Part shown: piece after piece, positions 12,543 to 51,223 of the stretch | Layout of the letters: each line of letters opens with the position of its first letter | Numbering within the stretch: the stretch's first letter is position 1 | Origin: Naegleria lovaniensis | Lineage: Eukaryota > Heterolobosea > Eutetramitea > Acrasida > Naegleriidae | DNA length: 51,223 nt | Direction of reading: 5' to 3' | Assembly (NCBI RefSeq): GCF_003324165.1 | Contig: NW_025407896.1 | Coordinates: 1-51,223 of the forward strand | The notes under the pieces: model-generated | Seen by the model: the letters and a program-made list of their open reading frames with translations, nothing else | Database searches by the model: none | Told to the model about the DNA's origin: nothing | Program-made: the position numbers and the translations under genes

Positions 12543-14088
12543 ATGATGAATTCTCATGTAATGATTTCTTTGGTGGAACAACAACAACGATATCGGAAGA
12601 TGAGCGTCAATCATTGCTGTTCAATAAATTTTTGTTGCAGAAACAATAACAACAACAACGATATCGGAAGATGGCTTGCAAATCGAGAAAAACAATACTT
12701 TGATTTCATTCCGATTGAGTGGATGAATGATCGTGAATTTATTCTCAATCATATTAAAAAATATGGCATCTAGGCAATTACAGGAAAATAAGGAGGTTGT
12801 TTTAGAGGTCGTGAAATTGAATGGCGAGCAGTTGTGCTATGCCTCTCAATCTCTCAAAAACGATTATGAAGTGGTATTGGAAGCTGTCAAACAAAATGGT
12901 CTTGCTTTAAATTATGCTTCCTATGAGCTTGCTGAAAATAAGGAAATTGTGTAGGAAGTAGTGAAACAAACGCAACATGCACTATTTTACGTTGAGCCGA
13001 AAGTGAGCAGAGATAACGATGTGTTTTTAATGTCTATATGCCCAAACCTGATGCACAAGTATTCTTATAAAAATTGGAACAATAATGAACAGTTATTATT
13101 TCAAGAATTGAATAATGACAGAGATTTCATATTGGAGGCAGTTGCACGAAATTGCAAAGCTTTTAAATTTGCATCTGGTGAATTGAAAACTGATCGACAA
13201 TTTGTGTTACAAGTGGCCAACCAACATGTTGGATCACTCGAATTTGCTTGTGATGAATTACGCAATGACAAGGAATTTATGCTCACTCTGATTGAACAAT
13301 GTGGTGGTGTAGTACTTGAATATGCATCCCATCAGTTGCAACGTGACAAGGAAGTGGTCATGAAGGCAGTGAAGAGTTATGGTTGTGCGTTGCAACATGT
13401 CTCCACAACGGACCTTGCATACGACAAAGAAATTGTATTGGAGGCGGTCAAACAACATGGATCTGCATTGAGATATGCGTCTGAAGAGATGAAACGATAA
13501 AGAAGTGGTGTTGGCAGCAATTCATCAAACTGCCTTCGCGATCTTGCAACATGATAAAAACATCATCCTTACGGCAATTCAGAAAAGCAGCCGAGTAATA
13601 GAAATAATCCCTGAGGCATTAACTCATGATAAGGAAATTATATTGCAAGCATTGGATCAATATGGCCTTGCACTTAAAAATTCGCTCCACAAGAATGGAA
13701 GGAAGACAAAGAAATTATTCTGAAAGCGGTCAAACGACACGGCACGGCATTGCGATATGTGTCCAAACCATTCATCATGCAGAATAAGGAAATTGTCTTG
13801 GAAGCAAGTATGCAAGATGCCTCTGATGTCCAGTATATTCCAGAAGAGCTGATTAACGACAAGGAGTTTATGATGCAACTGGTTTCACGAAATGGCCATG
13901 TGTTGAAACATTTACCGTCGCAACTGCAAGCTGATACAGATTTGATTGTACGCGCTGTAATTCACAGTGGTTACGCCACCATTTATTGTGAAGAGTTGTT
14001 ACAAGTACGAATGCAACATTATTATTTTGGAGCTTATCTTGGTAAACCTGAAACCTCTAGAAAAGTGTGTTTTCATGTGACCATGTGA
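12543..14088 (+). pseudogene. Broken DUF4116-repeat gene
   Basis: Tandem ~25-residue DUF4116-type units (pattern: DKEVVLEAVKQNGxALxYAS) run the whole length, but not in one frame. The frame changes near 12765 (after ILNHIKKYG), a TAG stops it at 12952-12954, it shifts again near 13497 (after SEEMKR) and once more near 13670-13690. The last part ends at TGA 14086-14088 after MQHYYFGAYLGKP. The intact paralogue at 17265-18971 has the same order of parts, including the unusual insert SICPNxxHKYSxxNWNNN and the end MEHCYFGVYLGEK, so this is a decayed duplicate. A 22-bp microduplication (AACAACAACGATATCGGAAG core) occurs near 12583 and 12651. Introns could explain one break but not the TAG plus several shifts. 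DUF4116 function is unknown; the repeats are known to be expanded in Naegleria. Confidence 0.8.
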
Positions 14089-28051: not shown

Positions 28052-28085
28052 TTTTTGTATGAAGAAACGAAGTGATGTGAAAAAG

Positions 28086-29216
28086 TCATACAACTAGTTG
28101 ACATTTAGTTTCTCCTGGAAATACTACATGGATTCCTGAATGTTCCTTGAATGAATCAGCTGTATAAGTCTCTACATAATGTGAAAAGGTTCCATGATGA
28201 ACAATGAGAGTTTTCTTTGGCATTAATTTGCGATGTAGTTCAATAATTTCGTGAGAACTGTTGGTGATGTTACCTACAAGGAATTTTGCCAAGCCACCAA
28301 TAAGTTTGGTTTTCTCTACGGATGCTTCACCTCCGTTGGTGATGATAAAATCAAAAGTGTCACTTGTCAGTGCTTGTAAATCTTCTTGTATATTGCATTC
28401 TGTAAAGACGGAATCTCCAGTCACATAAAATTTACTTAAACGAGCATCACTGTTCTTCTCTTTGACTTGTACAATGTATCCATTTCCATTCCCAATAGCA
28501 GCACCAACCTTTTTGGATTTTGCATGAATAGCATTCACTGAATGAATCTTGACACTAAAATGTTCCAAATCCTCAATGATCAAATCTTGTTGTGGTTCCA
28601 TCCAATACACCTTTCGATCATTTCCAAAAACTGTTTCCATATTTGTTTGATTTAACACATTTTTCAATAATTTTTCGACACTTGGATGCGCGACAATAAT
28701 AGAATTGTTTTTTCCTCTCACAATTTTTTCCAGTCCCAATTGATCCAAATGATCTTCATGACCATGAGTGAGAAGCCATACATCTACTTGTTCTAAATCC
28801 TGGTCGCCACTGAGAACAGGGTCTTGTAAACGTGTGGATTTAAACAAACCATAGTCTTGAGAGTGATTTTTGGGGCATAGTACTGGATCGCATGCTATTT
28901 GAAGCGAATGGGGACTTGTAGAAGAGGTTGTTTGAAATATCCAGGTTGCTCCTCCAACAGCGCGGACATGTTGAGTTGTGGAGGTGTTCGACGAGCTCAT
29001 TGTGATTACTGTGAAAGTGTGGAATTTTTTTTGTTGTTTGAAAAACGCTAACTCCAAAGAGGTTGAGCTCTTATCGATGCGTGAGGATAAATACACTGTT
29101 CGAAAACAATGTGAATTGGAGAAGGCTGCCCGGGTATTAAAGATGCATATTCCTAACAGTGTAGCATTTAGTATAATTACGTATTGAAAGCGATGTAGTT
29201 TGAAAAAGAGATTCAT
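28086..29216 (-). CDS. Metallo-beta-lactamase-fold hydrolase
   Basis: 376 aa from ATG 29216. The metal-binding motif THGHEDHLD (H151, H153, D155, H156) is followed by later strands and metal ligands (VTGDSVFTECN with Asp; LIVHHGTFSHY with His). The compact HxHxDH form and the order resemble the UlaG/L-ascorbate-6-phosphate lactonase and N-acyl-PE phospholipase D-like branch; the substrate cannot be told. The first 72 residues include a hydrophobic helix (YVIILNATLLGICIF) that could be a signal anchor. An in-frame Met at 29000 (MSSSNTSTTQH) sits just before the catalytic domain and may be the start of a cytosolic form. Confidence 0.88.
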   Translation of the reverse strand: MNLFFKLHRFQYVIILNATLLGICIFNTRAAFSNSHCFRTVYLSSRIDKSSTSLELAFFKQQKKFHTFTVITMSSSNTSTTQHVRAVGGATWIFQTTSSTSPHSLQIACDPVLCPKNHSQDYGLFKSTRLQDPVLSGDQDLEQVDVWLLTHGHEDHLDQLGLEKIVRGKNNSIIVAHPSVEKLLKNVLNQTNMETVFGNDRKVYWMEPQQDLIIEDLEHFSVKIHSVNAIHAKSKKVGAAIGNGNGYIVQVKEKNSDARLSKFYVTGDSVFTECNIQEDLQALTSDTFDFIITNGGEASVEKTKLIGGLAKFLVGNITNSSHEIIELHRKLMPKKTLIVHHGTFSHYVETYTADSFKEHSGIHVVFPGETKCQLVV

Positions 29217-35951: not shown

Positions 35952-36649
35952 ATTATTATGTCGTTGCTACAAAAATCATGTGCTTGGTCGTTACTCAATA
36001 TGTTGTAGTAATTATTTTTTTTTAATATGATGATGTTGTAAATTATTAGATTTGTATAAATCAAAATATTACTAATGTACGTAGTTGTTGTTTGGATGAT
36101 GATGATAACGATGATGGTTCCGACCCGTTCGAACTCGATGTGGACTTTAGCACAATGATAATGAAAGATTTTTTTTTATCTTCCTTGTGGTTCCCGTCGA
36201 ACCTGCTTTCTATTTGAGTAATATTTCAAATTCTAAAACAATGCATAACTGTCCTAATAAAGATGGTAAATTCTTCCTCACTGAGACCCTTGCCTTGTTG
36301 TTGATGCCTTTTGCATTGATGATTGAGCAGTACATTGAGGTGTGCTTGTGCCACTTGTTGTTGTTGAAACTGCGGCTGCTTCTTTTTTCCTTCTCCGAAT
36401 ATTTGATAAATGCTTGCTGGGTGGCGTTGGCTTATCACCAAGGTTTAACGGGCGATCAAATTACTGCAAAAAGATACAAATTATTACATGTGGAAGTAAA
36501 ATTGTTATCATTGAGATCGTTTTGACACAGTCTTTCACAAACTTACCGTGTTAAAATGTGGAAAGGTTGCACAATCGTCAGTAGTTGTTGTAGATATCGT
36601 TTCGATTTCGTTCAAAGGAGATATCTTACGTGATCAGTGAGCTTTCGAC
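35952..36649. other. Intergenic region, no firm gene
   Basis: 698 bp upstream of the lipid-transfer gene and of the small ORF at 36650. Overlapping open frames of 70-112 codons exist on both strands between 36187 and 36554 but show no coding character or domain. It must hold the promoter of the 2,228-aa gene; no specific element is recognised. Confidence 0.45.
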
Positions 36650-36946
36650 ATGTTGACAAATGTCTTGCCATACCAGTGGTTCTTCATGTTCTTCTTCACC
36701 TTTTGCGCAGTCTACGGTTTTCGACAACGCCTTCAAAATAGTGAACGCTGGTTAAAGACAAAAACTGTTTCTAAAACTCAATATCGAGAATATTGTTTTC
36801 AATCGCTAGCTGCACCATCTGTATGCGTGTTGTGTCGGGGCAGCGCTTTTCTTCACAAGCTGATTTTAATGACAGCAATTTTTGTTCTCATTATTGTCAT
36901 TTGTTTGATGAGGGTTGTTTCTGAAGTTGAAAGAAAAAATAATTGA
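36650..36946 (+). CDS. Possible small membrane protein, 98 aa
   Basis: ATG 36650 to TGA 36946. Two hydrophobic helices (WFFMFFFTFCAVYGF and LILMTAIFVLIIVICLM) flank a basic middle with a Cys pair (SVCVLCRG). The stop lies one base before the ATG of the next gene, so it could be a separate small gene, an upstream ORF, or a first exon whose splice I cannot place. No homologue recognised. Confidence 0.4.
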   Translation: MLTNVLPYQWFFMFFFTFCAVYGFRQRLQNSERWLKTKTVSKTQYREYCFQSLAAPSVCVLCRGSAFLHKLILMTAIFVLIIVICLMRVVSEVERKNN

Positions 36947-36947
36947 A

Positions 36948-38507
36948 ATGTGTCCTTGTTTTCCTCTTTGGAGCAAGAGCAATATAAAATACAAACACCT
37001 CCTTGATTCTTCTTTTGATGATATTGCTTTCATCATCATTCCATTTTTAAATCAAAATGAGATCATCAGATTTGCTGGTGTTTGTTCATCATGGAGAAGA
37101 ATTGTAATTTCTTCTTCCGAGAACAAATTCTCCAATATTTTGTATTCTAGAAAGAGTTTCAAGGAAATACCAATGGAAACAAAACTCAAAAATGATAATC
37201 AACAAGTTTTATCAATGTTTTCACATTTTGAATTCTCTAAATGTCATTTAACTTCATCACAATTCAAAACAATATTCTCTTCTCCCAAGCTATCATCATT
37301 AACATTGACACGCACAAACTTTACTCTTTTCCCTTCTGACACGCTTTCACTGTTGTCTATTAGCTACATCACTCTTTCTCTTGACATTATTGAGCTTTTT
37401 GTAGAATTGAAGAATTTGAAGAAACTACATTTATCATACACAAATATTGATTGTGATTGCATTGATTTTATTGTTAATGGTCCATTAAAATTAGAAAGTC
37501 TTAAGATTGCAGATAAGGTAATACCTCGGAGAGGTCTCATTATCATATTCAATCCTCATGTTCCATCATCACTCAATACCCTTACTATTGAGAGCTATGA
37601 TAGAGAGCAAATTCATAGTTTTAATATTGATACAGTCAATTTTCCTCATTTAAGAACATTATACATCACTGCAATACTACATAGTTCAGTGATTGAGAAA
37701 ATATTCAATCATGGACTCGAATTAACCTTGCTGAAACTAGAGAATACTGATCAAAGTTATAGTTATAACTTCGATTTTTCAAATGCACATCAAATACCCT
37801 CTCTCAGATCATTTTATTATAACGATATCATCAATATGGATATTATTCCACAAATGCTCAATGAAGACATTGAAAATCTCACAATTGCACGTCTTGATGC
37901 AATATCATCACTGACTTTATCTCGAATACTTTCTGATCAATTCACAAGTTTGACATCATTGACCCTTTTTGTAAGCCAATTGATGACAGATTGTGGAAAA
38001 TATATATTCAATTTAAAACACTTGACACGACTAGATATTTCTGGATGTAAACCACGACCTGAAATCTGTAAATATATTTTCAACATGAAAAGTTTGACAT
38101 ATATTGATCTTACAAATTGTGAAATTGGAGATGAAGGATTGAAATATTTATCAAATCATAACTTGGACAACATACAGACGCTAAAACTAGACTTTAACAA
38201 TTTAACTTATGTTGGAGTTGAATATTTGATGCGTGTAAAGTTCAAACGTCCATTGTTATATCTTTCTCTCAATGACGAAATTAGTAATAATGGAACCATT
38301 CATTTTGAGAGTGGATTCAATTTCAACGTAAAAACCCTCTTTATTATAGATGGGGGCATGGATTTTAGGGATGTAATTTCAATTCTACAAAACTGTATCA
38401 TAGAAGAATTGATTATAAGGAAACCACAGAAAATGCTTCTTGGATCACTGGCTATTAAAAAGCTTTCAAAGAAGAAACAGGTGAAAGTAGTAATGCTTGG
38501 CCAATAA
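36948..38507 (+). CDS. F-box/leucine-rich-repeat protein, 519 aa
   Basis: First ATG at 36948 (MCPCFPLWSKSN). An F-box-like motif is at about residues 22-55 (SSFDDIAFIIIPFLNQNEII, then RFAGVCSSWRRIV). Leucine-rich repeats fill the rest: LKKLHLSYTNIDCDCIDFI, LRTLYITAILHSSVIEKIF, LTRLDISGCKPRPEICKYIF, LTYIDLTNCEIGDEGLKYLS, IQTLKLDFNNLTYVGVEYLM. Cys/Asn-ending repeats of this kind fit FBXL-type SCF substrate receptors (inference). It is the last core gene before the subtelomere. Confidence 0.85.
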   Translation: MCPCFPLWSKSNIKYKHLLDSSFDDIAFIIIPFLNQNEIIRFAGVCSSWRRIVISSSENKFSNILYSRKSFKEIPMETKLKNDNQQVLSMFSHFEFSKCHLTSSQFKTIFSSPKLSSLTLTRTNFTLFPSDTLSLLSISYITLSLDIIELFVELKNLKKLHLSYTNIDCDCIDFIVNGPLKLESLKIADKVIPRRGLIIIFNPHVPSSLNTLTIESYDREQIHSFNIDTVNFPHLRTLYITAILHSSVIEKIFNHGLELTLLKLENTDQSYSYNFDFSNAHQIPSLRSFYYNDIINMDIIPQMLNEDIENLTIARLDAISSLTLSRILSDQFTSLTSLTLFVSQLMTDCGKYIFNLKHLTRLDISGCKPRPEICKYIFNMKSLTYIDLTNCEIGDEGLKYLSNHNLDNIQTLKLDFNNLTYVGVEYLMRVKFKRPLLYLSLNDEISNNGTIHFESGFNFNVKTLFIIDGGMDFRDVISILQNCIIEELIIRKPQKMLLGSLAIKKLSKKKQVKVVMLGQ

Positions 38508-39180
38508 AGTTGATTGAGCAAACTTTGGGATTTTGACCCACGTAGGGAAGACTAAAATTTAATTTTAATTATTAAACTCAATATTATGCTCTTATCCAAC
38601 ATTATAAGAACGAATCTAGCGTCATTATTACCGCTGACATGTCGTTCTCGAGAAAAATAAAAAACGCAGGTTTTCGCTGAAAGTTCGTGAGCGTAGCTTT
38701 TTTAGCTCCAAAGTCGATATGGTCCAAAGTCAGACGCAGACATGAAACCATCCCAGATAACTCTATTATGATAGCATCCCTTACGAATGATAGATATATC
38801 AATTTAGAAGGGTTGGCTCAACCTCTCTCGGACCCTGTCTCTTCCCAAAGCGAGGTACCTATAGTAGCCTCAGCGAAAAAACCAATCACTGGGAGGAGAC
38901 GGACACCATTAGTAACACATAGTTATATGATGCAAGATATTACAACAGCATGTTATATACATCACTTAAAGCATATTATGATTTTTGTAACGCTTGTCCA
39001 TGTCCATGATCACTACCATGGTATGTTATATGAAGAGTGAGTCCTATGATAGTTATAGTGGTTGTCAAGAAATACAACTTGATATATACGTCGTTCATGA
39101 GTGCTTGTGTATGTTTCTATTGTTTGTGACGAGAAATTCGAACTGTGTGTTGAACAGAACAGCTCCTGTCTCAAGCAGTC
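38508..39180. other. Start of subtelomeric DNA, no gene recognised
   Basis: 673 bp after the last core gene. A 117-codon open frame (38687-39040) includes a Pro/Ser/Lys-rich stretch of somewhat higher GC, but has no domain and no good start context. The rest is AT-rich. Confidence 0.4.
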
Positions 39181-39532
39181 AGGTTTTTGAGGACTTTGAA
39201 ATTGTTTTTTAAAAAATGTTTTGGACTCAAAAATTTCCAAGTTCAAAATGATAGAGAGGTCCAGCGAAAACATGAAATATGGCTCTTTTTCTATAAATAC
39301 TGATCAATTGTGTCTCAAATTGATATGTGAAGTGTTAATCACCATGTAGAACACTAATATTATGCTTGTGTGCTGATGACTGACTCCTGACGTGGAAATG
39401 TGGTACTCCTAACTGCTGAGTGTGTCCGTGAGGGTGATGTTGCTTGACATGTTCCTCTCCTGGTAATTAAACGTAGAGTGTAGTGTGTGTGTGAGATTTG
39501 TAGAGTATTTGTATTGTTTGTGACATGAATAG
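39181..39532 (+). repeat. Subtelomeric repeat module B, copy 1
   Basis: About 350 bp, repeated in the same orientation at 47528-47871 with scattered differences. Long identical blocks include CCAAGTTCAAAATGATAGAG, CACCATGTAGAACACTAATA and GTGAGGGTGATGTTGCTTGA. The two copies part exactly after the shared GACATGAA(T/C)AG: here unrelated sequence and the assembly gap follow, while in copy 2 a telomere-like motif and module A follow. Confidence 0.9.
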
Positions 39533-39613
39533 TGATGTATTTGTTGAATGAATCAGCTCCAGTGTTGGAGAGTCATTTTGTTGCTGGAGGTGGAATTTTT
39601 TAAAAAAATTTCA

Positions 39614-39623
39614 NNNNNNNNNN
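39614..39623. other. Assembly gap (10 N)
   Basis: Ten N bases between TTTCA and GTTTGGGTTTG. The true length of missing sequence is unknown. It falls right at the inner (3') end of the retroelement, where telomere-like repeats would be hard to assemble. Confidence 0.99.
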
Positions 39624-39642
39624 GTTTGGGTTTGCAACACTA

Positions 39643-39663
39643 GCAGGGGCCGAAGGTCCCTGC
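39643..39663 (+). other. Stable short hairpin near the 3' end of the retroelement
   Basis: GCAGGGGCC-GAA-GGTCCCTGC forms a 9-bp stem (one G-T pair) with a 3-nt loop as + strand RNA. On the element's own strand one pair becomes A-C. It lies about 20 bp inside the telomere-like 3' terminus and is much more GC-rich than the surroundings, so it may be a 3' RNA structure used by the element or a termination/processing signal (inference). Confidence 0.5.
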
Positions 39664-39837
39664 TTAACACTACTGAGTGAGATGAGCTGTGTTTTGAATG
39701 GAGTTTGACTCGGGAGAAGAGCACAACAATTTACTTGGTGGCTATCCGGGCCAGAGTATTTTGTTTTTATTGCGAAAGCAACTTATGCTTCTTCTTAAAG
39801 GATTCGTTGGTGGTAACCTCAAATTGATTGAGGTACC

Positions 39838-40674
39838 TTATTGATTGAGTTTGGTTGATTTCTTACTGTTCCCGCCACCGGAATCATCGGAATCATCGGA
39901 ATTTTGATTGTTGGAATTCGACTTTGTAAAAAATGAATCAATACATTTCTGTTTCAAAGTTCGTTTCTTCTCTTCATTCGATGATTTCTTCTTCTTCTTC
40001 CTATTTGATGGAATTGAGGAAGGAGTTTCATTCGATGAAGCTTGTGGTCGTTCCACTCGCTTTCTTGGTGGTGTTAGTTCGGTACCAAGCCTTGTAATTC
40101 GTCCAAGTATATCATCAGGTGGTTGTGAACTTCCTGGATTGTTACTTGGTTGATGGTTTGGTTTGGTTTGGGTTAGTAAGCGTAGTATTAGTGGGGTTGG
40201 AGGGTTCGCTGGGGTGTTGGGGGGTTTAAGATCCTCCAAAAGATCCTTTCCTCCAACCCTTCGTTGTGTAATCTTGTTGAGGTGAGTTCCTCTTTTCAAA
40301 GCTAAAAATTTGTTAGCAATGAACTTATAAAATTGTGTATCAATCTGTTGTTGAGTACAATCAGGATTGAGATATTTGAAGAATTCAATCTTCTTTTGAA
40401 ATGCTCTGAGCAATTCAATAATTGTAGGCATTCTGATATTACAAATGATCACTTTTGAAGGATCATTCACAAATGTAATACCCTCACATACATGATTGAG
40501 AATTTTCCTATAAGGAATATGATTGTCAGTTCCCTTAAAGACCACTCTCCAAACTGGTGGAGGTTTCTGTTCATGAAGAAACAATTGTGATCTTGCTCTC
40601 TCAATTTTCACTTCAATGGAAGTTGAATTTAGAGGATATTTCCTCTTGAGAGTAAAAAAATTGAGATGTTTCAT
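39838..40674 (-). CDS. Retroelement C-terminal ORF: RT thumb remnant and basic tail with PIP box
   Basis: 278 aa. Its ATG overlaps the stop of the RT frame in the tetranucleotide ATGA (40671-40674), a -1 frame step. Residues 25-95 (VWRVVFKGTDNHIPYRKILN to IRMPTIIELLRAF) match the region that follows the RT in Penelope proteins (P..I.KIL..H...L..D...V..RR..NL.DLL), so this is the continuation of the same polyprotein, split by a frameshift or by coupled translation. After residue 150 comes a Pro-rich then Lys-rich tail (RKKKKK at 225-230). At 242-249 the tail has QKCIDSFF, which fits the PCNA-binding PIP consensus Qxx(I/L/M)xx(F/Y)(F/Y) exactly (bases 39928-39951). No GIY-YIG or Cys/His endonuclease residues are present. 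The last part is Ser/Asp-rich. Confidence 0.75.
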   Translation of the reverse strand: MKHLNFFTLKRKYPLNSTSIEVKIERARSQLFLHEQKPPPVWRVVFKGTDNHIPYRKILNHVCEGITFVNDPSKVIICNIRMPTIIELLRAFQKKIEFFKYLNPDCTQQQIDTQFYKFIANKFLALKRGTHLNKITQRRVGGKDLLEDLKPPNTPANPPTPLILRLLTQTKPNHQPSNNPGSSQPPDDILGRITRLGTELTPPRKRVERPQASSNETPSSIPSNRKKKKKSSNEEKKRTLKQKCIDSFFTKSNSNNQNSDDSDDSGGGNSKKSTKLNQ

Positions 40675-42250
40675 ACACTTATTAATAAATTTGTAGGAGT
40701 ATCCTCTGTGTGAAGTCTCTCCTTGAAACGATCTCTAATTCCAACCCATAGTTCAAATGTTGAACATCTCTTTGCATATCTAATCAATTCTCCATGAATG
40801 AGTCCCTTTACAACACCAGGAGCTGCACAAGAATCTTTTCTTGTATATTGATACAAGTTGAGTTCCTTTTGATGTGTTGTTGTTTCAATTCGAAATGGTT
40901 CGGATTCATCATTTTGAGGATTGAAAAAGAATTTGATATCAAGGAATGAATCTGTGGATGCGTCATTGAGAATTAGAGATTTTGGATAATATCTCTTGAG
41001 ATTTCTGATATATTTTTGAAGTTGACCACGTCTTCCTTCATTTACACGATGGAAGTGAATTGTGAAAATGTCATCAATATATCTCTCAAGATGTAATTTG
41101 TTATTTCTCAATTTTCCAAGAGCGTCTTGGTCATGACTAGTCCATTCCAATTCATAATAACAAAGAGTGAGATTTGCAATGTTTGGAGCTGCATTGGTTC
41201 CCATTGGAATACCTTTCTTTTGATGATAGAACTTGTCAAGTTCTGGTACTTTAAAGTATGTAGTTCCCAGAACGATTTGGAGCATGTGCAATGTTGCCTT
41301 ATTATGTTGAGGATTGAACATGGAATTATCAATACTCCGTCCATATTCAAGCATGTTAATCATTGCATTAATGATATCGGAGTGTTCGAGTTCTGTATAA
41401 AGAGAGGTGAAATCCATTGATTTCATATTTGCATAATTCCTGTGAGGAAGTCCTGCTCTTTCATAACATTGCATGATTCTGAATTGAGATTCATCTGCAC
41501 TTTCTGAGATGAAAATTCGTTTGTAGAATCTTGATTGAGGGTTGTCTGATTCTCTTCTTAATAATCTAATTAATAGAATTAATCTTGCATTAAGAAGTTT
41601 TGAAATGATTGTATTATGACAATCAACAGAACTGACGATTGGTCTACCAACAATTGGATTCTTATGAACCTTTGGAATCATATAGAATCTTGGAAGTGGT
41701 TTTGATAACAAGTTTTCCTTCTTGTGATGTGTCTCCACTAAATTGAACACAATCTCTGAATTTGTTTTGATATGAGGAATGTGCTTTGCCAAATTTTCCT
41801 TAATTTGTTATTTTGCATCATTCTCTGTGGAAATTTCAGAGTAGTGAGTTGAAGTGCTCAATTGACGATTGAGTTCTTGGATATAAGAGGATTTACTCCA
41901 GAGAGTTGTACCAAGATTCTTGTCAGATGGAGTCACAATAATGTTAGGATTACTTCCGAGAGTTTTGATACTATTCAATTCTTCCTTTGAGAGATTTGAA
42001 ATTCTTGGTTTGAATTTCTTGTAATAATCGGAGAGAATCTTTGGAATAGTCATTGTTGGATTTGTTCTGTTCCAGGGAATGTTTGTTGCTCTCATTTGTT
42101 TATAGACACGTTCAAATGATTCAGTGTCAAATTTGAGAGCTTGAGAAGAGTTTGAAAAGGTACATGGAATTTTGTACCTTTATTAAGGAGTGAAATGTCA
42201 TTTTGAGTAATTTCAAAATTATCCATTCCAATGAGATGAACGGTTTTCAT
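40671..42250 (-). pseudogene. Penelope-type reverse transcriptase, broken reading frame
   Basis: From ATG 42250 (MKTVHLIGMDNFEITQNDIS) through LLNKGTKF, the frame is lost near 42170-42180 and resumes as IPCTFSNSSQALKF. A TAA at 41808-41810 stops it, and reading goes on in that frame to 40671. Motifs in order: PSDKNLGTTLW (the PLE DKG-like motif); FYMIPKVHKNPIVGRPIVS (RT1-2); MKSMDFTSLYTELEH (motif A, catalytic Asp); KGIPMGTNAAPNIANLTL (motif B); LERYIDDIFTIH (motif C, catalytic DD); STDSFLDIKFFF (D/E); GVVKGLIHGELIRYAKR (PLE thumb signature). These place it with Penelope and near telomerase RT. All catalytic aspartates remain, so decay is recent. The breaks make this copy non-functional unless bypassed. 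Confidence 0.88.
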
Positions 42251-42289
42251 CTTCTCCTTAATAGAATTATTGTATGTGAGGGGAACTTG

Positions 42290-42589
42290 TCAATTACGAG
42301 GAGATGAGAGATTCCTCTTCCTTTGAGGAGTATTTCTTCTCGAGTTGGATGATGAATTCTGAGAGTTATTCTGAGAGTAATTCTGAGAATTGTTCTGTGA
42401 ATTCTTCTTGAATTTTGAAGAGTTTCTCTTGTGTTGTTGATGAGATGATGAATTGGTTCTCTTTGAAGAATTTGATTGAACATTTCTGTTGAAGGAGACA
42501 GATTTCCTTGGAGATTTGTTCAATTGTTGAGAGGTTTTCTTCAAATTTGAATTGACTCGGGTTTTTCTTGGTTTGAACTGTCTGTTCAT
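42290..42589 (-). CDS. Basic Ser/Asn-rich N-terminal ORF of the retroelement
   Basis: 99 aa, MNRQFKPRKTRVNSNLKKTS onward, rich in Asn, Ser, Lys and Arg, with a repeated SQNNSQN run. It ends in TGA 42290-42292; the frame then continues openly through QVPLTYNNSIKEK into the RT ATG at 42250. So it is either a separate small ORF1 (nucleic-acid-binding, as in some telomeric PLEs) or the N-terminus of one polyprotein with a stop mutation. No fold is recognised. Confidence 0.5.
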   Translation of the reverse strand: MNRQFKPRKTRVNSNLKKTSQQLNKSPRKSVSFNRNVQSNSSKRTNSSSHQQHKRNSSKFKKNSQNNSQNYSQNNSQNSSSNSRRNTPQRKRNLSSPRN

Positions 42590-42646
42590 AACCTTTGATG
42601 GTTTCTTCTTCTTGTTGTTGTTGTTGTTTGAAGAAGAAGGGTTTGG

Positions 42647-43433
42647 TAGGTGACCAGCTTGACTTTTAATCTTAATTTTTCGACATGCTTAATGATGGGA
42701 TTTTTAATTTTTTTTTAAAGATCGTGTATGGAGCTATATCTATGTGTTGACATTACTTTCATCCATTAATTAAGGGTAGTTATTGAACTGTATTCGCTTA
42801 AAGTAGACCTCTTTTGCATGGTCGGGTTTTTCGTCATCTTTGATGTTGAGCTTGATCCAAGCACATCATTCGATAGATTTTGAAGAGTAGTACATTCGTG
42901 CTAGCGACATCATTGGATAGTGAGCTAAGTTGGTTGCGTTGTTCAACAAATGGTGACAGGTGTCAAAATGTCGATAGAGTTTAAGCGACACCTTTTTTGT
43001 AGATCTCACGAAAATAATGGGGGTCATGATAGAGCATTCGATCAGGTTTAGGGTAGTTTTCGAGAAAATCAAGTTTGAAGGAATTTCAACGAGGTCAAAA
43101 ATGACATGAAAATTTTTCAAAAAAAAATTAAAAAAAAATGAAGCCAAAACTCCCTGCATTTTTGAGGTGATCATCATCAACATCGGGTCATGTTTTCATT
43201 CATCATCATGTCATATTTATATTGATCACATCGAATGTGCACATCATGATCAACATTCATCAGGAATATTTTGTGTGTATGAATACACATGGAAATGATA
43301 ATCATCAAATAGTAGCGGTTAGAATTGTAGTGAACTGCTCCGTTGGATATGATGATCATGGAATGAATCTGATGATCGGAATGTTGTTACAGTGATCAGA
43401 AACCATGGAATTGATTGTTGGTTCAGTTCAAAG
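42647..43433 (+). repeat. Subtelomeric repeat module A, copy 1
   Basis: 787 bp, over 90% alike by eye to 47886-48673 in the same orientation. It begins TAGGTGACC directly after GGGTTTGG and ends GTTCAGTTCAAAG. After that point copy 1 continues into ordinary subtelomeric DNA, whereas copy 2 is cut off by GGGTTTGG. A 105-codon minus-strand frame is open in both copies (42866-43183 here) but its differences are mostly amino-acid-changing. Confidence 0.92.
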
Positions 43434-43641
43434 TGATGGTCATTTCATGACTTTGTGTAATGTGAAGTGTGATGGTGGCTCTATGGTAGTGTTGAAAAGT
43501 ACGATCGAGACAAGCACTTTATAGAACTACATGAAATTGATATGGATGGATGTCCTGATCATCCAAACAACAAATCATCAGTTTTATTCATTGACATGAT
43601 TGTTTCATGGAATGGGAGCACTTCGCTTTTCTCGGGGGTAT

Positions 43642-45812
43642 GGGAAAGAAATACGAAGGAAATTGCAAAAACACCAGAAAATTTTAGACAATTCATAACT
43701 TTCCCATGCTTTCCGAATGCTTCAGCCTCTTTCTCGGTATTTCCAATCAGTTTTGCAAAATTCCGAAAATTTGAACGGAAATTCATAAAACGTGAAGAAG
43801 CAAACGGAATCCTCAGTCAAAAACAGATAAAAAAACAGCAGCACACCATGGAGAAAAATTGTCCTATTTGCAACACCAACATTGATGCATTTGCGTTCAA
43901 TCGTCACATTCCCAAATGCTATCATCAGTCATGTGTTGCCAATGAAGAGATTCCACTGTGCACATGTTTGACATGAAAAGGAACAAAGACACATGATGGT
44001 GATTTTCTCCACAAAATACAAAATTCAACCACTCCCCATAAAAGAAGGTCTGTAACGGCTCCAGCGACATTGGGATCAATGTCTCAAACACAATCCTTAG
44101 GGACTTTCAGCGAAGATGTCTCTCCAAAGCTTCATCCTGATAAACTTAGCGGTAAAGAATGTATTTGTTGCACCATCCGTACGGCTGCCAAAGGATTCCC
44201 CAAAATTTACGTCGGAAAATATCGAACACTAATACTATGCAAGAAATCTCATGCTCTGGACAACACTGAGAATAAAAGATTGGCTGAAATGATTGACAAA
44301 ATCAATGATGAGGTCATTTCAACCAATGATTCAAAGCAGTCAATTCTTGATGGAGAATCTGATGAAGAGAATGCTATTGAAGACGTTATGTGTAGTGGTT
44401 GTAAAAATGTTGACTCTTCTTCAATGTGTGGCGCTGTTTGTAAGGGAACCCTTTACATTAAGGAAAAAAAAGGTCAAACCGAGTCTAATATTTTTTTCTG
44501 TAAAGGTTCTCACTTAATCAAATACTTGGTTCGCCATTATTGCTCCCATAAATCAGGTAAAAAGAAAAAAACTAACCCCAATTCATCCGTAACTAACAGA
44601 TCATCCAAAAAACGAACCAAAGATCAAATTATTGATGAAAGTGAAACGGATGATGAATGTGAGCATGATGTAATTGAAACTCATACCACTCCAAGTAAGT
44701 TGATCAAAAAATAAATTTTTCTAATATTTCAAATTCTCCTCATGTTTTCGAAGGTAATTTCACTCAGTATGTCATTGATTGCAATGTAATTCATAAAATT
44801 ACTGGAATATGTGAAAAAGGTTTTCATGAATTAATCCAATTGAGAAAGCAAACACGACTCAATGCGTTAGGAAGACCAATAGAAATTCCAGTGGAAGATG
44901 AAATTATGATAACACTTACACATTTGCGGCAATATTGTACGGACCAATTTTTAAGTTGCATTTTTCAAATTGAAAAACGAGCAATAACCGCTATAAGAAT
45001 TAGAGTTCTTGATTGGTTGTATATCGAGCTAAAACGTTATATATGTATGCAAACCTTGCAATTCAGAATGGATAATAGTGAAGAATATTTTAAGCATTTG
45101 ATTACCATAATAATAGACGGATCAGAACAGCCTGCATTTTGTTGTGATTCCGCAATTTTGGATTTTGAATTCTATTCTGCAAAAAAAAACCAACACAGCA
45201 TCACAATCCTGATGGCAATGACTCCTTCTGGCCATATTGGATATCTTTCGCCTTGTTTTCCAGGAAGAGTTAATGATAATGAATTGTTCAACAAAACCTC
45301 TTCTCATTGGTTGAGTGAAATGGATGCATCAGAATTCATTTTTGGCGACAGTGGTTTTAAAGGGCTTCCTCGTGTAATTACTCCTCCAGACGACCCATCC
45401 TTGCGCAAAATTTTCTCTAGTGTTCGTATTAGAGTAGAAAATAAGTTCAGGGAAATCAAGATATTCAAATCTTGCAAAGAACGAATTAGAATCAAAACCC
45501 AAAGCAAAACTGAAGTATTACGCATTGCTCATATGCGATGGGTAGTTGTTGGTGCTTTTTGCAACTTAAATTGGACGAGATATAGTAATAAAGACTTTGA
45601 AATGTCTTGCCCATAAAATCCGATGGAATTTAAAAGAATTTAACAGAATCCGAACAAATTTGAAAGAATTTGAAAGAATTTCACAAATACAACAAGACGA
45701 AGCATTTTTTTTGATGATTCTTTGAAATTTGATGGAAGAGCAAAGAAAGCTTTGGAAAAGAACAGACAAAATTTGCCAAAAATTTCTCATTTCGCCTTCG
45801 TATTTCTCGCCC
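43642..45812 (+). mobile_element. Harbinger-like DNA transposon, ~2.2 kb
   Basis: Encodes a DDE transposase (43848-45616). Candidate terminal inverted repeats are GGGAAAGAAATACGAAGG at 43642-43659 and the reverse complement of 45795-45812, GGGCGAGAAATACGAAGG (16 of 18 identical). No target-site duplication is obvious next to these, so the outer ends may lie some bases further out. Internal DNA near both ends is rich in GAATTTGAAAG-like repeats. It lies just telomeric of module A copy 1. Confidence 0.7.
43848..45616 (+). pseudogene. PIF/Harbinger-type DDE transposase with in-frame TGA
   Basis: Exon 1 43848-44694, intron 44695-44753 (59 bp, GTAAGT...GAAG, phase checked), exon 2 44754-45616. 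The start has a C2HC finger (CPICNTNIDAFAFNRHIPKC). A TGA at 43974-43976 interrupts, but the same frame then runs on through KGTKTHDGDF, Cys-rich segments (LSGKECICCTIRTAAKG; VMCSGCKNVDSSSMCGAVC) and a basic NLS-like run. Exon 2 has a helix-turn-helix region (IMITLTHLRQYCTDQFLSCI) and the DDE_4-type catalytic domain: IIIDGSEQPA (D), EFIFGDSGFKG (D), RIRVENKFREIK (E). Either the element is dead from a nonsense mutation, or translation starts at a later Met (44079). The catalytic residues are all present. Confidence 0.8.
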
Positions 45813-47527
45813 TCGTCTCGGAAATGATCATTTCTTGAGGAAGGGTACAACTCTCCTCTCTGGTTCATGTCATTCATTCTATCATCATGACACGTTATGA
45901 TCACCATTGTAGAAGTGTTTTATGTGATTGTGAGTGGTTGAATGTGATCATGATGAATTGTTGTTGGTATGTATTGTTGTATGATTGAATGATCATTTTA
46001 TAACAATTGATTGATTAAGTTTTTCGATAAACCGATGATTGTAATGTTGTATAATACATTGTGAAGAACATTTCTATGACTATTGATGATGGATATGATC
46101 ATTATTGGTGGAGTATCATGATGAATGTTGTAGAGGTGTGATACCATATCCTTCCAAGAGCGATTGTGTCATGAACAATACACATCAACATGTTCATCAT
46201 GATGAGTATGACACATCCATGTTGGTTGTACTCACTGAATCATCAATTTATGGAAGTGGTGTCTCACTCTTTCAATTCATTTTTCTTTTTCACGTGATAT
46301 TACGATACTGAATAATTTTAAGAATATCACAGTGACTTTATATGATAGTATATAGTGTGATATTGTTATTTTGAAATTTGTGGAATTTATCTATATGAAT
46401 TGATTTTGTTATGAGGCACATGAGCTGTGTTGAAAATGATTATTAATTAATTTTTGAAGAGTTGTCAGGAGAGTGATGCAGATAGTTTTTTATGGTAGAT
46501 GAGATGGTGTACAACACATTGACATTAATTCTTGTATTTGTTCATGTCTAGAATGTATTGTTGTTGAGCACCTGAGAAGATTTTGTCATGAAGTGCATTA
46601 CAATGTGAGACATGGTTTTTTCCTTGAGTTGTAGCAATCATTCATGTGTTGATCTTGTTCTATTGTGTTATTATTGATGTTGTGGAGTGTTGTGATTCAT
46701 TGTGTGATGGAAGTATTCACTTATGTCACATTTGACACTTTTTCATGGATAGCCTGTGTTGATTCATGATGGCTACGTTGAAAATAAAGAATTAATTCAG
46801 TGATTTTCATGATCAGTGCATGTGAAATGTATGGTGTATGTGGTTGATATGCGTCAATGTTCATGTCATCTTGATTTTGAAATTTGTCTGGATTTTTGAC
46901 CCTATTCTTCCGCATTTAGAATTTATCCAAAAAAATGTTGTTGTGATTGATCAGTGTTGTTTGGTGTTGTGATGACGGAATCATGATTGAAATCATTTGT
47001 AGCGATTGTAGATGTGTCCTTCAACAGTATTGGATACGTCTACCATGTTCGTTGTTATCACCAAACGGATGAGTGTTCAAAGTTGTTCATGAAGAGTGAT
47101 GTGATGAAACATGGTTGTTTCGATAATGTAAACAACAAGAGTTTGGAATTAATTGGAGGAAAACTAATGGGTTTGTAACTCGCCAAACATCCATTGGGTT
47201 TGGCTCCACCTACTCTTTTTTTTGAGCCATTTTAACGACTTTACTATCAAAAAAAAATTTTGATTTCAATAAGTCCTGTCCACGGTCCGAAGTTAACTGG
47301 TGAGGACGAGATATACTCAAATCCTAGGCTAATTTTCATTTGCTTTCTAATGGTGTTGAAATTTCTAAGAGATGTGAAGTGGTTGTTGAGTTATTTCACT
47401 CTGAATTTTGAAGGTAAATTGGCCCAAAAAAAAATTTAATGTTGTAAATGAAGAGAGGATGATTATTTATTATCGGACTGGTGTTTCAAACTGTAAAACC
47501 AGAGAGCAGCAATGAAATTGGAACACA
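45813..47527. other. Low-C subtelomeric DNA, no gene recognised
   Basis: About 1.7 kb of AT-rich DNA, visibly rich in TGATGA, TGATCATGATG and GTTGTTG on the + strand and poor in C. Short open frames have no domains. Two telomere-like octamers or heptamers occur near its right part: GGGTTTG at 47169-47175 and GGGTTTGG at 47196-47203. Confidence 0.5.
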
Positions 47528-47871
47528 AGGTTTTTGAGGACTTGTAAATTTTTTTTAAAAATATTTCTCAAAAATTCCAAGTTCAAAATGATAGAGAGGT
47601 CCAGCGAAAACATGAAATATAGCTCTTTTTCAATAAATACTGATCAGCTGTATCTCAAATTGATATATGAAGTGTTACTCACCATGTAGAACACTAATAT
47701 TATGGTTGTGTGCTGATGACTGACTCCTGACGCGGAAATGTGGTACTCCTAGCCGCTGAATATGACCGTGAGGGTGATGTTGCTTGACATGATCCTCTCC
47801 TGATAATTAAACGTAGAGCGTTGTGTGTGTGAGAGATTTGTAGAGTATTTGTATTGTTTGTGACATGAACA
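47528..47871 (+). repeat. Subtelomeric repeat module B, copy 2
   Basis: Second copy of 39181-39532, same orientation. It ends in GACATGAACA and passes straight into the telomere-like GGGTTGGGTTTGG and module A copy 2. It therefore shows the B-A junction without the retroelement. Confidence 0.9.
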
Positions 47872-47884
47872 GGGTTGGGTTTGG
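47872..47884 (+). repeat. Interstitial telomere-like motif at the B-A junction
   Basis: GGGTTGGGTTTGG, two degenerate units of the terminal TTTGGG repeat in the same orientation as the telomere. It joins module B copy 2 to module A copy 2. Confidence 0.8.
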
Positions 47885-47885
47885 A

Positions 47886-48673
47886 TAGGTGACCGCCTTG
47901 ACTCGTAATCTTAATTTTTCGACATGCTTAATGATGGGATTTTTAATTTTTATGAAATCGTCGGGGATGGAGGTATATCTATGTGTTGATATGACTTTCA
48001 TCCATTAATTATGGGTAATTATTGAACTGTACTCGCTTAAAGTAGACCTTTCGTGCATGGTCGGGTTTTTCGTCATCTTTGATGTTGAGCTTGATCCAAG
48101 CACATTATTCGATAGATTTTGAGGGGTAGTACATTCGTGCTAGCGACATCATTGGATAGTGAGCTAAGTTGGTTGAGTAGTTCAACAAATGGTAACAGGT
48201 GTCAAATTTTTGATAGAATTTAAGCGACACCTTTTTTGTAGATCTCACGAAAATAATGGGGGTCATGATAGAGCATTCGATCAGGTTTAGGGTAGTTTTC
48301 GAGAAAATCAAGTTTAAAGGAGTTTCAACGAGGTCAAAAATGACATGAAAATTTTTCAAAAAAAAATTAAAAAAAAATGAAGCCAAAACTCCCTGCATTT
48401 TTGAGGTGATCATCATCAACATCGGGTCATGTTTCCATTCATCATCATGTCATATTTATATTGATCACATCGAATGTGTACATCATGGTCAACATTCATC
48501 AGGAATATTTTGTGTGTATGAATACACATGGAAATGATAATCATCAAATAGTAGCGGTTAGAATTGTAGTGAACTGGTTTCGTTGGATGTGATGATCATG
48601 GAATGAATCTGATGATCGGAATGTTGTTACAGTGATCAGAAACCATGGAATTGATCGTTGGTTCAGTTCAAAG
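47886..48673 (+). repeat. Subtelomeric repeat module A, copy 2 (capped)
   Basis: 788 bp matching 42647-43433. It stops at GTTCAGTTCAAAG and is followed by GGGTTTGG (48673-48680) and unrelated sequence, as if a broken end had once been capped with telomere repeat. Confidence 0.92.
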
Positions 48674-48972
48674 GGTTTGGATTCCTCTCAGTAGGATTTT
48701 TAAAAAGATTCAATATAACAATATATAACTTGTTTTTAATATCAATTAGTCCCACGCAGAGAGGAAGGAGATATTAAGCGAAAGATTTCTTGTTGTTATA
48801 GTGGATATCGAGATAACCCCTATTTTTGTACTAAAAAATCAGGTCCTGTGGTGGTTGACCATCCTTAAAAATTATCGTTGAATGATCAAAACTTGAATAT
48901 TTCCATCAATTAAGATATAAGGAAGTAAGGTGCTGCTGTTTCGTTCGAGTTGAATGTGAAAATAGTTAAATA

Positions 48973-49055
48973 TTTTGTGCGTCCAAGTAGGTGATATGTT
49001 ACTCTTAAAGTTGGTCATAATTCAAATATGGACGAGCAAAAGTCGGTATTCCCTC
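48973..49055 (+). repeat. Short repeat C, copy 1, with MDEQK start
   Basis: About 83 bp related to 49668-49755: shared TTTTG(T/C)GCGTCCAAGTAG, then an A/T-rich stretch and ATGGACGAGCAAAA, then TTCCCTC. The ATG at 49028 opens a 37-codon frame (MDEQKSVFPRNWIPL...) to 49141. The match covers an upstream block plus the first codons, as in a duplicated promoter and 5' end of a gene. Confidence 0.65.
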
Positions 49056-49667
49056 GAAATTGGATACCGTTAACGTTGATTGAAGAGTCGTTTCGTGATA
49101 TGTTGGCCTTGAACAGCTTCCATGATGGATCTCCAAAGTAATGAATATTGAATTATCGTTGTTGAGTATCCCGAAACATTGTTATGGAATCTTAATGCGA
49201 GTGAGTCTTTTTGATGACTGAATCATTGAAATTGAGTTGAGTTTCTATTGTAGTTGTGAGTGATGAAAGTTGCTACTGTTCTACATTATCATCATAAAAT
49301 GTATACCAGACACAAATGAACATTGAATTCATTTAAGACGATAGAGGGAGGTGTGTTCTTGTTTTTCTGTGTTTAGCTTCATTCAATGAAAAGGGTTGTA
49401 TTGATCATGATGAGATTGGATCTAAACAATGCCTTGAATTCGACAACGCTTCATCAAGGGTGGTGATTTATTCACTAAATGTCATGAGTACAAACCAGGA
49501 ATTGAACAGAATCACCTCTGGTTCATACCTGATTGAAATTTGAACAGTTCCTTTTTCATGTATTGATTATTGAGTGACTCCGATTGTTTGGTAGTTGTTG
49601 TTATTGTTGAACATTGAGTGCCCTCATCTTAATAGTGGTATGAATAGCCGGTGAACATGTCCTGTAA

Positions 49668-49755
49668 TTTTGCGCGTCCAAGTAGTTGATGTTAACTCTT
49701 GGAGTTTGTTACGATTTTTAAATGGACGAGCAAAAATTCGTTAATACATTCCCTC
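49668..49755 (+). repeat. Short repeat C, copy 2, with MDEQK start
   Basis: Second copy. GCGTCCAAGTAG lies 48-49 bp before an ATG in both copies. Confidence 0.65.
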
Positions 49756-49823
49756 CAAAACGATTACGGATGAACCATTCACAAACAACAGCAGGAATGG
49801 TTCAGTGTTATACTGTTCAGCAA
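49722..49823 (+). CDS. Possible first exon of a small subtelomeric gene
   Basis: ATG 49722 encodes MDEQKFVNTFPPKRLRMNHS and on to VQQ (34 codons), ending exactly before a consensus donor GTAAGT at 49824. Unspliced, the frame runs to 49913 (63 aa). No downstream exon could be identified, so it may be a gene remnant. The conserved MDEQK start with copy 1 at 49028 is the main reason to list it. Confidence 0.3.
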
Positions 49824-49913
49824 GTAAGTGATGGAATCATGATCGATACAATTTCACAATTTGAACTTGTATTCGTCCTGGTCTGCAACTATTTTGGATC
49901 TTTCATCGAATGA

Positions 49914-50860
49914 ATTCAATGTTTAATGATACATTCATCAGTATGTCATGAGATTCTAACTATGATAGATGTACTTGATCACTGAGTGTTTATTGTTGTG
50001 TCATCTGTATCGAGTTGGTGGAGCGCTCTCATCTGTTGTATGATTCATTGCAAGAAGTTACCTTGTTGTATTTTGCATTTGTTTGCTGTGATTTATTGTT
50101 GGAAACAAATGTTCAATATGATGATTTTCATGATTTGTGCATGTACTACATGGATGGTGTGCAAGGTGTGTTCATGTTTGTGGTCGTCATCTCATTTTTT
50201 GAATTTCGTTCAGCAAGTGATCATGTTTATAGTTGATGGATTGTATCATTTTGAATAAATCATGATGAACTACATTGATAGCGATCATCTTTATGTGTGT
50301 TTCAAGTGTGTTGTTTGATTCATTTGACTAATCTCTACAGACTGTACTGACCATAACATTTGGCGGATGAAACATAAGATGAAAATGTGTGTGGTAGATT
50401 TCATGTTTTCCAAATTCTGATATTCATTGGAGTACATGTTGACCATGATGATGTCATGATATGGGATTGATTTCGGGGATCCATCTTTTATGTTCATTGT
50501 GAAGTATGCAATAAAATGTTAAATAGTTGATGGAGTTGTGCACCACAGAGATGACATGAATTTTGATTATTCTGTCATCATCATGAAGTAATCATGGTAT
50601 ATTATATGTTACATCAATTTGAAGTGTTGTTAGTTGTTGTGTGCATGATGTGATATGAATGTTTGAAAAAAATGTGACATGTTGTTTGTATGTTGTGATG
50701 ATGTTGACCACTCCTTATGAAAGTGATATTACATCTTTATAATAGGTAGTACAACATATCTATGAAGTTATATTGAATGTCTATTGATACTTGTGGAGAT
50801 AATTAATAAATGTTGACTTTGAATGTTTGTAATTTGGTCTTGGTCTTGGACATTTCTGAT
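49914..50860. other. Telomere-adjacent low-C DNA
   Basis: About 950 bp rich in T and G on the + strand (TGTTGTG, GATGATG), with few C. Open frames here look like composition artefacts. No RNA gene recognised. Confidence 0.5.
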
Positions 50861-51223
50861 TGGGTTTGGGTTTGGGTTTGGGTTTGGTTTGGGTTTGGGT
50901 TTGGGTTTGGGTTTGGGTTTGGGTTTGGGTTTGGGTTTGGTTTGGGTTTGGGTTTGGGTTTGGGTTTGGGTTTGGGTTTGGGTTTGGGTTTGGGTTTGGG
51001 TTTGGGTTTGGGTTTGGGTTTGGGTTTGGGTTTGGGTTTGGGTTTGGGTTTGGGTTTGGGTTTGGGTTGGTTTGGGTTTGGGTTTGGGTTTGGGTTTGGG
51101 TTTGGGTTTGGGTTTGGGTTTGGGTTTGGGTTTGGGTTTGGTTTGGGTTTGGGTTTGGGTTTGGGTTTGGGTTTGGGTTTGGGTTTGGGTTTGGGTTTGG
51201 GTTTGGGTTTGGGTTTGGGTTTG
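50861..51223 (+). repeat. Telomere, (TTTGGG)n
   Basis: About 60 tandem copies of TTTGGG run to the last base, G-rich strand 5'->3' toward the end of the window, as at a right chromosome end. At least four variant units (TTTGG or a TTGG-shortened unit, near 50884, 50936, 51066 and 51137) break the perfect array. The proximal boundary is sharp after TTTCTGA. Confidence 0.96.

Follow-up and report, generated by a model that had tools for sequence, protein, structure and literature searches.

The right-hand end of a Naegleria lovaniensis contig (NW_025407896.1 of assembly GCF_003324165.1) holds a decayed Penelope-type retroelement without a detected GIY-YIG domain, here called P (39,624-42,638, minus strand), whose 5' side is oriented toward a terminal telomere array, (TTTGGG)n, that fills the last 364 bp (50,860-51,223, plus strand). 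The window discussed below is this entire contig of 51,223 nucleotides, which is C97 of a 97-contig, 30.69-Mb assembly in which each contig is labelled with 'C' and a number. P is best read as a decayed endonuclease-less (EN-less) Penelope-like element (PLE), passenger or founder, and the broader result is the surrounding array of units seeded by telomeres, found at many chromosome ends.

Anatomy and coding capacity of P

The reverse transcriptase (RT) of P is encoded in a frame of 378 codons (40,671-41,807, minus strand), which contains PKVHK, MDFTSLYT, GIPMGTNAAPNIAN, RYIDD, FLDIKF and GVVKGLIHGE. All of the motifs from which a minus-strand Penelope element had been recognised in the original prediction (PKVHK, MDFTSLYT, MGTNAAPNIAN, YIDD, GVVKGLIHGE) lie within this one frame, and their set and order are what we take to be the Penelope type. 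The match to Pfam RVT_1 is weak (E 1.6e-4, 21.9 bits, under the cut-off of 29.6), and a group II RT model is matched at E 1.9e-6, also under its cut-off. Fold prediction for the RT gave a pLDDT (predicted local distance difference test) of 33, and the best match of its sequence in the PDB was a terpene synthase at E 0.12. Searches of viral contigs and phage records yielded no useful relatives, and degenerate RT-motif patterns found no RT relative in viral contigs and, among GTDB genomes, two contigs whose frames at the match are unlike RT.

The remaining frames of P, all on the minus strand, include a C-terminal frame of 298 codons with a Lys/Ser/Pro-rich end and no GIY-YIG match (39,838-40,734); N-terminal frames in two registers (42,092-42,289 and 41,808-42,179, together 41,808-42,289), with an in-frame stop ahead of the RT frame; and an Asn/Ser/Lys/Arg-rich frame at the 5' end (42,290-42,638), which continues open into the next unit. 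The coding sequence is thus broken in the window by the stop before the RT frame and by register shifts upstream of that frame and at its 3' end, breaks to which single-base assembly errors may have contributed.

As originally predicted, no GIY-YIG domain was detected. None of seven P frames, located 5' of, in and 3' of the RT, matched the GIY-YIG profile at E<=10, in a search where HMMER filters drop most matches above about 0.1, and the 30.7-Mb assembly gave 0 matches at E<=1, with a control that found the domain in 12 of 14 genomes, all 12 of them prokaryotic, so that sensitivity in eukaryotes is unproven. A GIY-YIG repair gene is common in eukaryotes, and a GIY-YIG-free assembly may therefore reflect sensitivity or introns. 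P might also have had such a domain at its N-terminus, because the 5' end at 42,638 may be either native or a point of truncation. A tandem pseudo-long-terminal-repeat (pLTR) structure was not seen at P.

Junctions and copies of P

The span first proposed for the element, 39,624-42,646, is corrected at its end to 42,638, the last eight positions (42,639-42,646) being a GGGTTTGG stub that belongs to the next unit. At its 3' end P carries CAAACCCAAAC (as GTTTGGGTTTG on the plus strand, 39,624-39,634), which abuts an assembly gap of 10 N (39,614-39,623) that masks the true 3' junction; the window alone therefore cannot show this junction. It is read without a gap in a second copy on C21, where GGGTTGGGTTTGGGTTTGGGTTTG is followed by CAACACTAG, giving 24 nt of telomeric repeat, the longest tract seen at a classified unit start if the variant repeats of C43 are excepted. 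The predicted telomeric motif is therefore real despite the gap, although in the window it is seen only against N. Seven nucleotides before it lies a hairpin, AGCAGGG...CCCUGCU (39,642-39,664, minus strand), and the 97-nt 3' end of P folds with a z of -2.2, 4 of 200 shuffles being equally good.

This second copy occupies C21:648,516-650,194 (minus strand), with its telomeric motif in addition, and shares 99.2% identity with the window; a DNA search of the genome and a protein search at E<=10 found no others. It is truncated at its 5' side at the equivalent of window position 41,312, inside the RT, and thus is without the N-terminal part of the RT; the cut is directly followed by TGGGTTTGG and then by a C-family unit. 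The complete coding sequence of a working telomere-primed retroelement is absent from both copies, the one in the window being broken and the one on C21 starting inside the RT. Both lie less than 12 kb from a contig end with the 5' side outward, toward (TTTGGG)n in the window as had been predicted, while C21 ends without telomere repeats. Relatives at internal sites or with a GIY-YIG domain, which the original prediction had named as evidence that would count against it, were sought genome-wide and not found.

On its proximal side P is flanked by E/B-type subtelomeric sequence that is cut at the P junction (38,524-39,613, minus strand, the proximal limit being taken from a C17 match). This proximal neighbour is common to the two copies and is cut at nearly the same position in both (the gap masks the exact base in the window), and for this reason both may come from a single insertion event. 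Their proximal flanks are 90.1% alike, as against 99.2% for P itself, and one copy of P can therefore stem from copying that began at a stub.

The subtelomeric units

The DNA around P recurs at many contig ends, as units of several families: C of about 2.9 kb, B of about 3.1 kb (its distal part 91-95% like C) and G of about 2.8 kb (its distal part 73-81% like C), with D corresponding to G from position 559 and F to B from position 915. In the window, a C-family unit (42,639-47,195, minus strand) begins with its stub GGGTTTGG directly distal to the P 5' end, and its homology to the C reference stops at 47,120. It is followed by the first 680 positions of a B-family unit (47,196-47,871, minus strand, stub at 47,196), by a C-family unit cut at about position 797 (47,877-48,672, minus strand, stub at 47,877) and by a terminal D-family unit (48,673-50,859, minus strand, stub at 48,673), which reaches the distal end of its family and is internally about 82 bp shorter than the copy on C78. 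A DNA transposon (43,636-45,815, plus strand) lies inside the first C unit and has an open reading frame (ORF) with HTH_Tnp_4 and DDE_Tnp_4 (44,840-45,616); it has imperfect terminal inverted repeats and an extra ORF (44,070-44,714) without a Pfam match. Apart from this transposon, the ORF list for the window has none of at least 150 codons in its B, C or D units.

Unit positions were compiled by hand from searches scoring best candidates only, in a table of 93 rows for starts and another of 78 rows without P, and 47 of the 78 unit starts were checked at letter level. Pieces of one unit were merged for B with its C-like distal part, for C97 around the transposon and for C6, and the D unit in the window was manually given 559 as its start, where the search, running on from the preceding C unit, had given 235. 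Low-identity and fragmentary matches were omitted from the 93-row table, for example C39:225,532-226,268, C62, C15:1-804 at a left end, the B-type distal part C24:632,867-633,900, the C25 distal rows, C43:390,256-390,883, C91:16,810-16,994, C10:744,392-744,957 and the rows of variant repeats. The 78-row table further leaves out C12, C8, C27, C56, C74, C50, C19:669,923 and the B rows starting at 267, 333 and 570. Contig ends were unseen for three matching contigs (C50, C62, C74), and lengths for C8, C27, C50, C56, C62 and C74.

In the subtelomeres sampled, units of families B, C, D, F and G form mosaics in which nearly all point the same way, and the units start at fixed proximal positions. Of 39 C rows, 34 begin at position 1; 24 of 36 B rows begin at 1 or 2; and of 18 G/D rows, 14 begin at 559 (a value assigned manually for the one in the window) and the other 4 at 1. 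Distal ends, unlike these starts, are scattered. At 43 of the 47 checked starts, GGGTTTGG lies within 25 nt of the proximal boundary; the four exceptions are C44, with the recipient's own TTTTTGG, C11, with GGGGGTTGG, C91, with GG, and C5, with none. The 129,160 subtelomere bases examined contain GGGTTTGG 53 times reading telomere-ward and 0 times in the opposite direction, where shuffling of non-overlapping base pairs predicts about 2, so that the motif is not there by chance; one reverse site, at window position 31,736, falls beyond the stretch that was counted. At most of the 53 sites the boundary is that of a unit other than P. The 15-mer GGGTTTGGATAGGTG, which joins the stub to the start of C, has 31 forward occurrences and a single reverse one on the left end of C12, every one of them at a C-unit start.

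These arrays therefore have the features described for MoTeR elements, namely head-to-tail units, 5' sides outward and interstitial telomere stubs. Outward orientation and a telomeric motif had been put forward as hallmarks of telomere priming by P, which is not supported in that form: because nearly all sampled units have both, the combination is not diagnostic of PLE priming here. The idea that P alone is marked by telomere geometry was likewise rejected, since other units show the same geometry at 43 of the 47 starts checked. What is gained is a control, in that orientation and a telomere motif cannot by themselves identify a telomere-primed retroelement where other units match it.

Three further observations concern the units. 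Variant telomere-like repeats (such as TTTACTCTTTGGG, TTTATTCTTTGGG or TTGGGTTTA) lie between the distal end of a unit and the telomere on C3, C19, C24, C25, C28, C40 and C44. At C4:835273-835404, a stub is followed by a terminal unit of some 120 bp that matches no family. At the 3' end of unit D (48,673-48,780, minus strand), a strong hairpin immediately precedes CCAAACCC (z -3.25, equalled by 0 of 200 shuffles).

Telomerase is encoded in the assembly, where a TERT gene on C15 has Telomerase_RBD at 128.8 bits and pieces of RVT_1 in a single frame of 1,250 codons. The 18-mer (TTTGGG)3 has 1,190 forward occurrences and one reverse occurrence, and telomere arrays thus read almost exclusively rightward in this assembly.

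Truncation of internal and terminal units

Thirty-five pairs of abutting units were found, 33 of which have a proximal member other than P; among these 33, in which the junction common to C21 and C3 is counted twice, only 2 proximal members have at least 98% of family length and 4 reach 95%. By comparison, all 10 classified units that abut a telomere array have at least 98% of family length (Fisher p 3e-8, on rows that are not independent, owing to shared descent), and 8 of 8 remain (p 5e-7) when the two reference units, on C3 and C28, are removed. These 10 are the units for which telomere letters were seen (for C25, from match rows and letters), and the count leaves out C4, whose last unit fits no family, C7, C10, C16, C24, C30, C39 and C44. 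Truncation of the 5' side as plain failure of reverse transcription was rejected, the classified telomere-abutting units being full length. The pattern fits ends that break, gain a seed and are extended again, and misfits truncation during each addition.

Evidence on RNA and DNA templates

Over 3,188 bp, C21:652,937-656,124 is identical to C3 with 0 mismatches, as far as the C21 contig runs. This stretch comprises one whole truncated-type unit of 1,327 bp and 1,859 bp of the next, and identity begins at the stub, the proximal flanks differing right up to it. An identical tract of this length that starts at a stub suggests DNA-level copying, and it is the one clear case here of transfer of a distal tract between ends, as is known for Y'-type repeats moved by break-induced replication (BIR).

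Joins with little or no stub at identical unit starts, which are those of C5, C91, C11 and C44 given above, point in another direction. In addition, B joins E-type sequence to F at GG, and the copies of E on C44 and C17 continue through that point; G and D likewise differ at GG. Where a few joins at these recurrent unit starts are almost without a stub, a template with a defined end, such as RNA, is suggested. The possibility that the full stub is a fixed part of every template was rejected, as C5 has none, C91 has only GG and the internal join of B is at GG. At C43:390905-390934, a C-unit start bears a 15-nt reiteration (GGGTTTGGATAGGTT/GGGTTTGGATAGGTG) resembling a stutter at initiation. As with MoTeR arrays, both RNA- and DNA-templated processes are likely to have taken part.

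Other features of the window

The window also encodes three DUF4116-repeat proteins (17265-18971, 26180-28093 and 12961-13500), which agree with the heterolobosean-like genome of the original prediction. Rfam gave a single match on 36,000-51,223, far under its gathering score. In a profile search of the genome with RVT_1, 42 places were found, P itself not among them, and were compared by coordinates only; eight RT places (676-codon frames) score equally, and one of these, C22:648120-648488, lies some 10 kb short of where C22 ends, on the proximal side of the mapped units.

Proposed origin of the array and its alternatives

From the observed anatomy, orientation, stubs, truncation pattern, identical tract and TERT gene, we infer a break, a seed, a kind of template and a mode of arrival for P. 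In this proposal, which as a whole cycle we hold with about even confidence, P is a decayed EN-less Penelope-type remnant that forms one unit of a subtelomeric array, the array itself having grown through repeated end repair. A chromosome end would break or erode inside a unit or in unique DNA; telomerase would then add a short seed, typically ending in ...GGGTTTGG-3'; the 3' end of this seed would prime the copying of a unit that itself begins at such a seed; and telomerase would cap the new end. P would most likely have arrived first when its own RNA was reverse-transcribed from a telomeric 3' end of this kind, as is thought for EN-less PLEs. At founding junctions, units B, C, D, F and G would have been copied from a template whose 3' end was fixed, and would then have spread between ends by stub-initiated DNA copying resembling BIR, much as in the MoTeR arrays of Magnaporthe. 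The original prediction that P used a telomeric end as primer is compatible with its RT, orientation, junction and location, but the geometry is not diagnostic and may reflect one event.

Several points weigh against this proposal. P is known from two copies with one shared proximal neighbour, so that its mode of arrival rests on perhaps a single event, and the scheme of break, seed and template is drawn from genomic sequence. Between P and the unit references there are chance matches of 14-17 nt with B and C and none with D, F and G. The 3' hairpin is not general, being strong in D and not in B or C, and clear in 2 of 4. A C-like stretch of 75% identity (C39:225532-226268, minus strand) lies far inside its contig, and a 185-bp fragment of D (C91:16,810-16,994) is inverted. 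As C21 ends inside a unit, the tract that it shares with C3 could partly reflect assembly; joins at GG could also be obtained by contraction of a stub by one hexamer, and for G and D the order of events could run either way.

A possible but less probable explanation is DNA recombination throughout, in which all units, P included, were moved by break-induced or microhomology-mediated replication or by end joining, with short telomere tracts as seeds, as in yeast Y', and in which P is an ordinary subtelomeric insertion that never used a telomeric primer. It would account for an identical tract that starts at a stub and crosses into a second unit, for copies of P that are more alike than their flanks with the border at a stub or at a gap masking one, for full-length terminal and mostly truncated internal units, and for the related distal parts of B, C and G, which are common among ends. 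Yeast Y' elements are described as needing homologous recombination, including BIR, and interstitial telomeric sequence often lies between them (PMC13177704). However, stubs of 8 nt are short for strand invasion, some joins at a unit start have GG or nothing, and the 3' untranslated end of P coincides with a 24-nt telomeric tract. Far less credible is a scaffolding error or ordinary insertion behind the P junction: the 10-N gap lies exactly there, yet C21 has the same junction ungapped and the same anatomy is present at 43 of 47 checked unit starts.

It is improbable that P, or intact kin outside the assembly, has been the engine of the arrays, all units being non-autonomous and reverse-transcribed onto telomeric 3' ends in the manner of HeT-A or Athena, beside telomerase. 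Fixed 3' starts with variable 5' ends in several families would be expected from this, and P is the only RT seen inside the mapped arrays, as judged from the coordinates of the 42 RVT_1 places, a list from which P itself is absent. Priming at exposed termini has been described for EN-deficient PLEs, with telomeric repeats added afterwards at the truncated 5' end (PMC3846280), and internal initiation of reverse transcription has been reported for another PLE (PMC11167929). Against this, the full length of classified terminal units means that truncation is not simply failed reverse transcription, a complete RT is present in neither copy of P, P and the units have no termini in common, and a tract longer than one unit has moved in one piece. 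Since P shares no termini with the units, its mobilisation of them in trans is not indicated, save via the telomeric motif. We also think it unlikely, if somewhat less so, that two layers of maintenance coexist, namely telomerase-made TTTGGG repeats and, at broken ends, a telomerase seed priming RNA-templated copying of kilobase non-coding units (from an RNA ending in CCAAACCC), carried out in trans by a Penelope-type RT, from P or intact kin, or by telomerase, with P as the relic enzyme. The original prediction had chromosome ends extended by retroelements beside telomerase; a TERT gene is present too, but nothing shows P to be a past or present engine of chromosome-end growth, because the frames in the window are broken and the C21 copy is without the N-terminal RT part.

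With end repair as the preferred reading, the arrays would record breakage and repair of chromosome ends unit by unit, in a protist with a TERT gene, and the choice between RNA and DNA as template becomes a directly testable question. If P did use telomeric primers, EN-less PLEs would reach Discoba, which would bear on the age of the link between PLEs and chromosome ends. The novelty of an EN-less PLE in this lineage is unproven: among the listed open-licence papers (CC0, CC BY, CC BY-SA) on Penelope or telomeres in Naegleria or Heterolobosea, neither titles nor abstract openings describe it, nor do the available portions of PMC5055719 and PMC3266345, and no heterolobosean is named in the list of telomere-associated elements as excerpted from PMC10088271.

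Comparison with known systems

Canonical Penelope elements with GIY-YIG presumably have the RT motif order seen in P, and differ in that P is without a detected GIY-YIG domain or a visible tandem pLTR. In Drosophila, HeT-A/TART arrays consist of units in the same orientation at chromosome ends; this orientation is shared with N. lovaniensis, where there are in contrast a TERT gene and terminal TTTGGG arrays. In the EN-deficient PLE family, telomeric repeats are found at the 3' end. With its members (Athena of bdelloid rotifers and fungal, protist and plant relatives), P has in common RT motifs that we take to be of PLE type, no GIY-YIG found, a place near a chromosome end, an outward 5' side, telomeric repeats at the 3' junction and a telomeric stub at the 5' end. 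It differs from them in being represented by two incomplete copies, perhaps of one insertion, among units with the same geometry, and the likeness drawn here is one of features. For EN-deficient PLEs, priming is placed at deprotected telomeres or breaks, with telomeric repeats later added to the truncated 5' end (PMC3846280).

The Y' elements of Saccharomyces are similarly arrayed subtelomeric units, often with telomeric tracts between them, which are amplified by recombination including BIR (PMC13177704). Their tracts are 20 to about 500 bp long and occur at 62% of tandem junctions, while those described here are mostly 8-24 nt; Y' also carry ORFs, and no contribution from truncation by de novo telomere addition was found there (PMC13177704).

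MoTeR1 and MoTeR2 of Magnaporthe oryzae likewise form head-to-tail arrays with 5' sides outward and short interstitial telomere tracts, and in their account de novo telomeres heal truncated elements, a partner lacking RT shares 5' sequence, and BIR takes part (PMC7367193). Their differences from the present system are that the MoTeR1 RT resembles those of SLACS/CRE1 and that MoTeR1 and MoTeR2 share both termini, where P shares none with the units, its 5' end possibly being missing; further, no ORF of at least 150 codons is listed for the window's B, C or D units, the inserted transposon aside. Telomere-like repeats at one terminus are found in both systems, here as variant repeats such as TTTACTCTTTGGG at the distal ends of units, and for MoTeR arrays truncation, de novo telomeres on seeds of 1-4 nt, BIR and transposition have been discussed jointly (PMC7367193).

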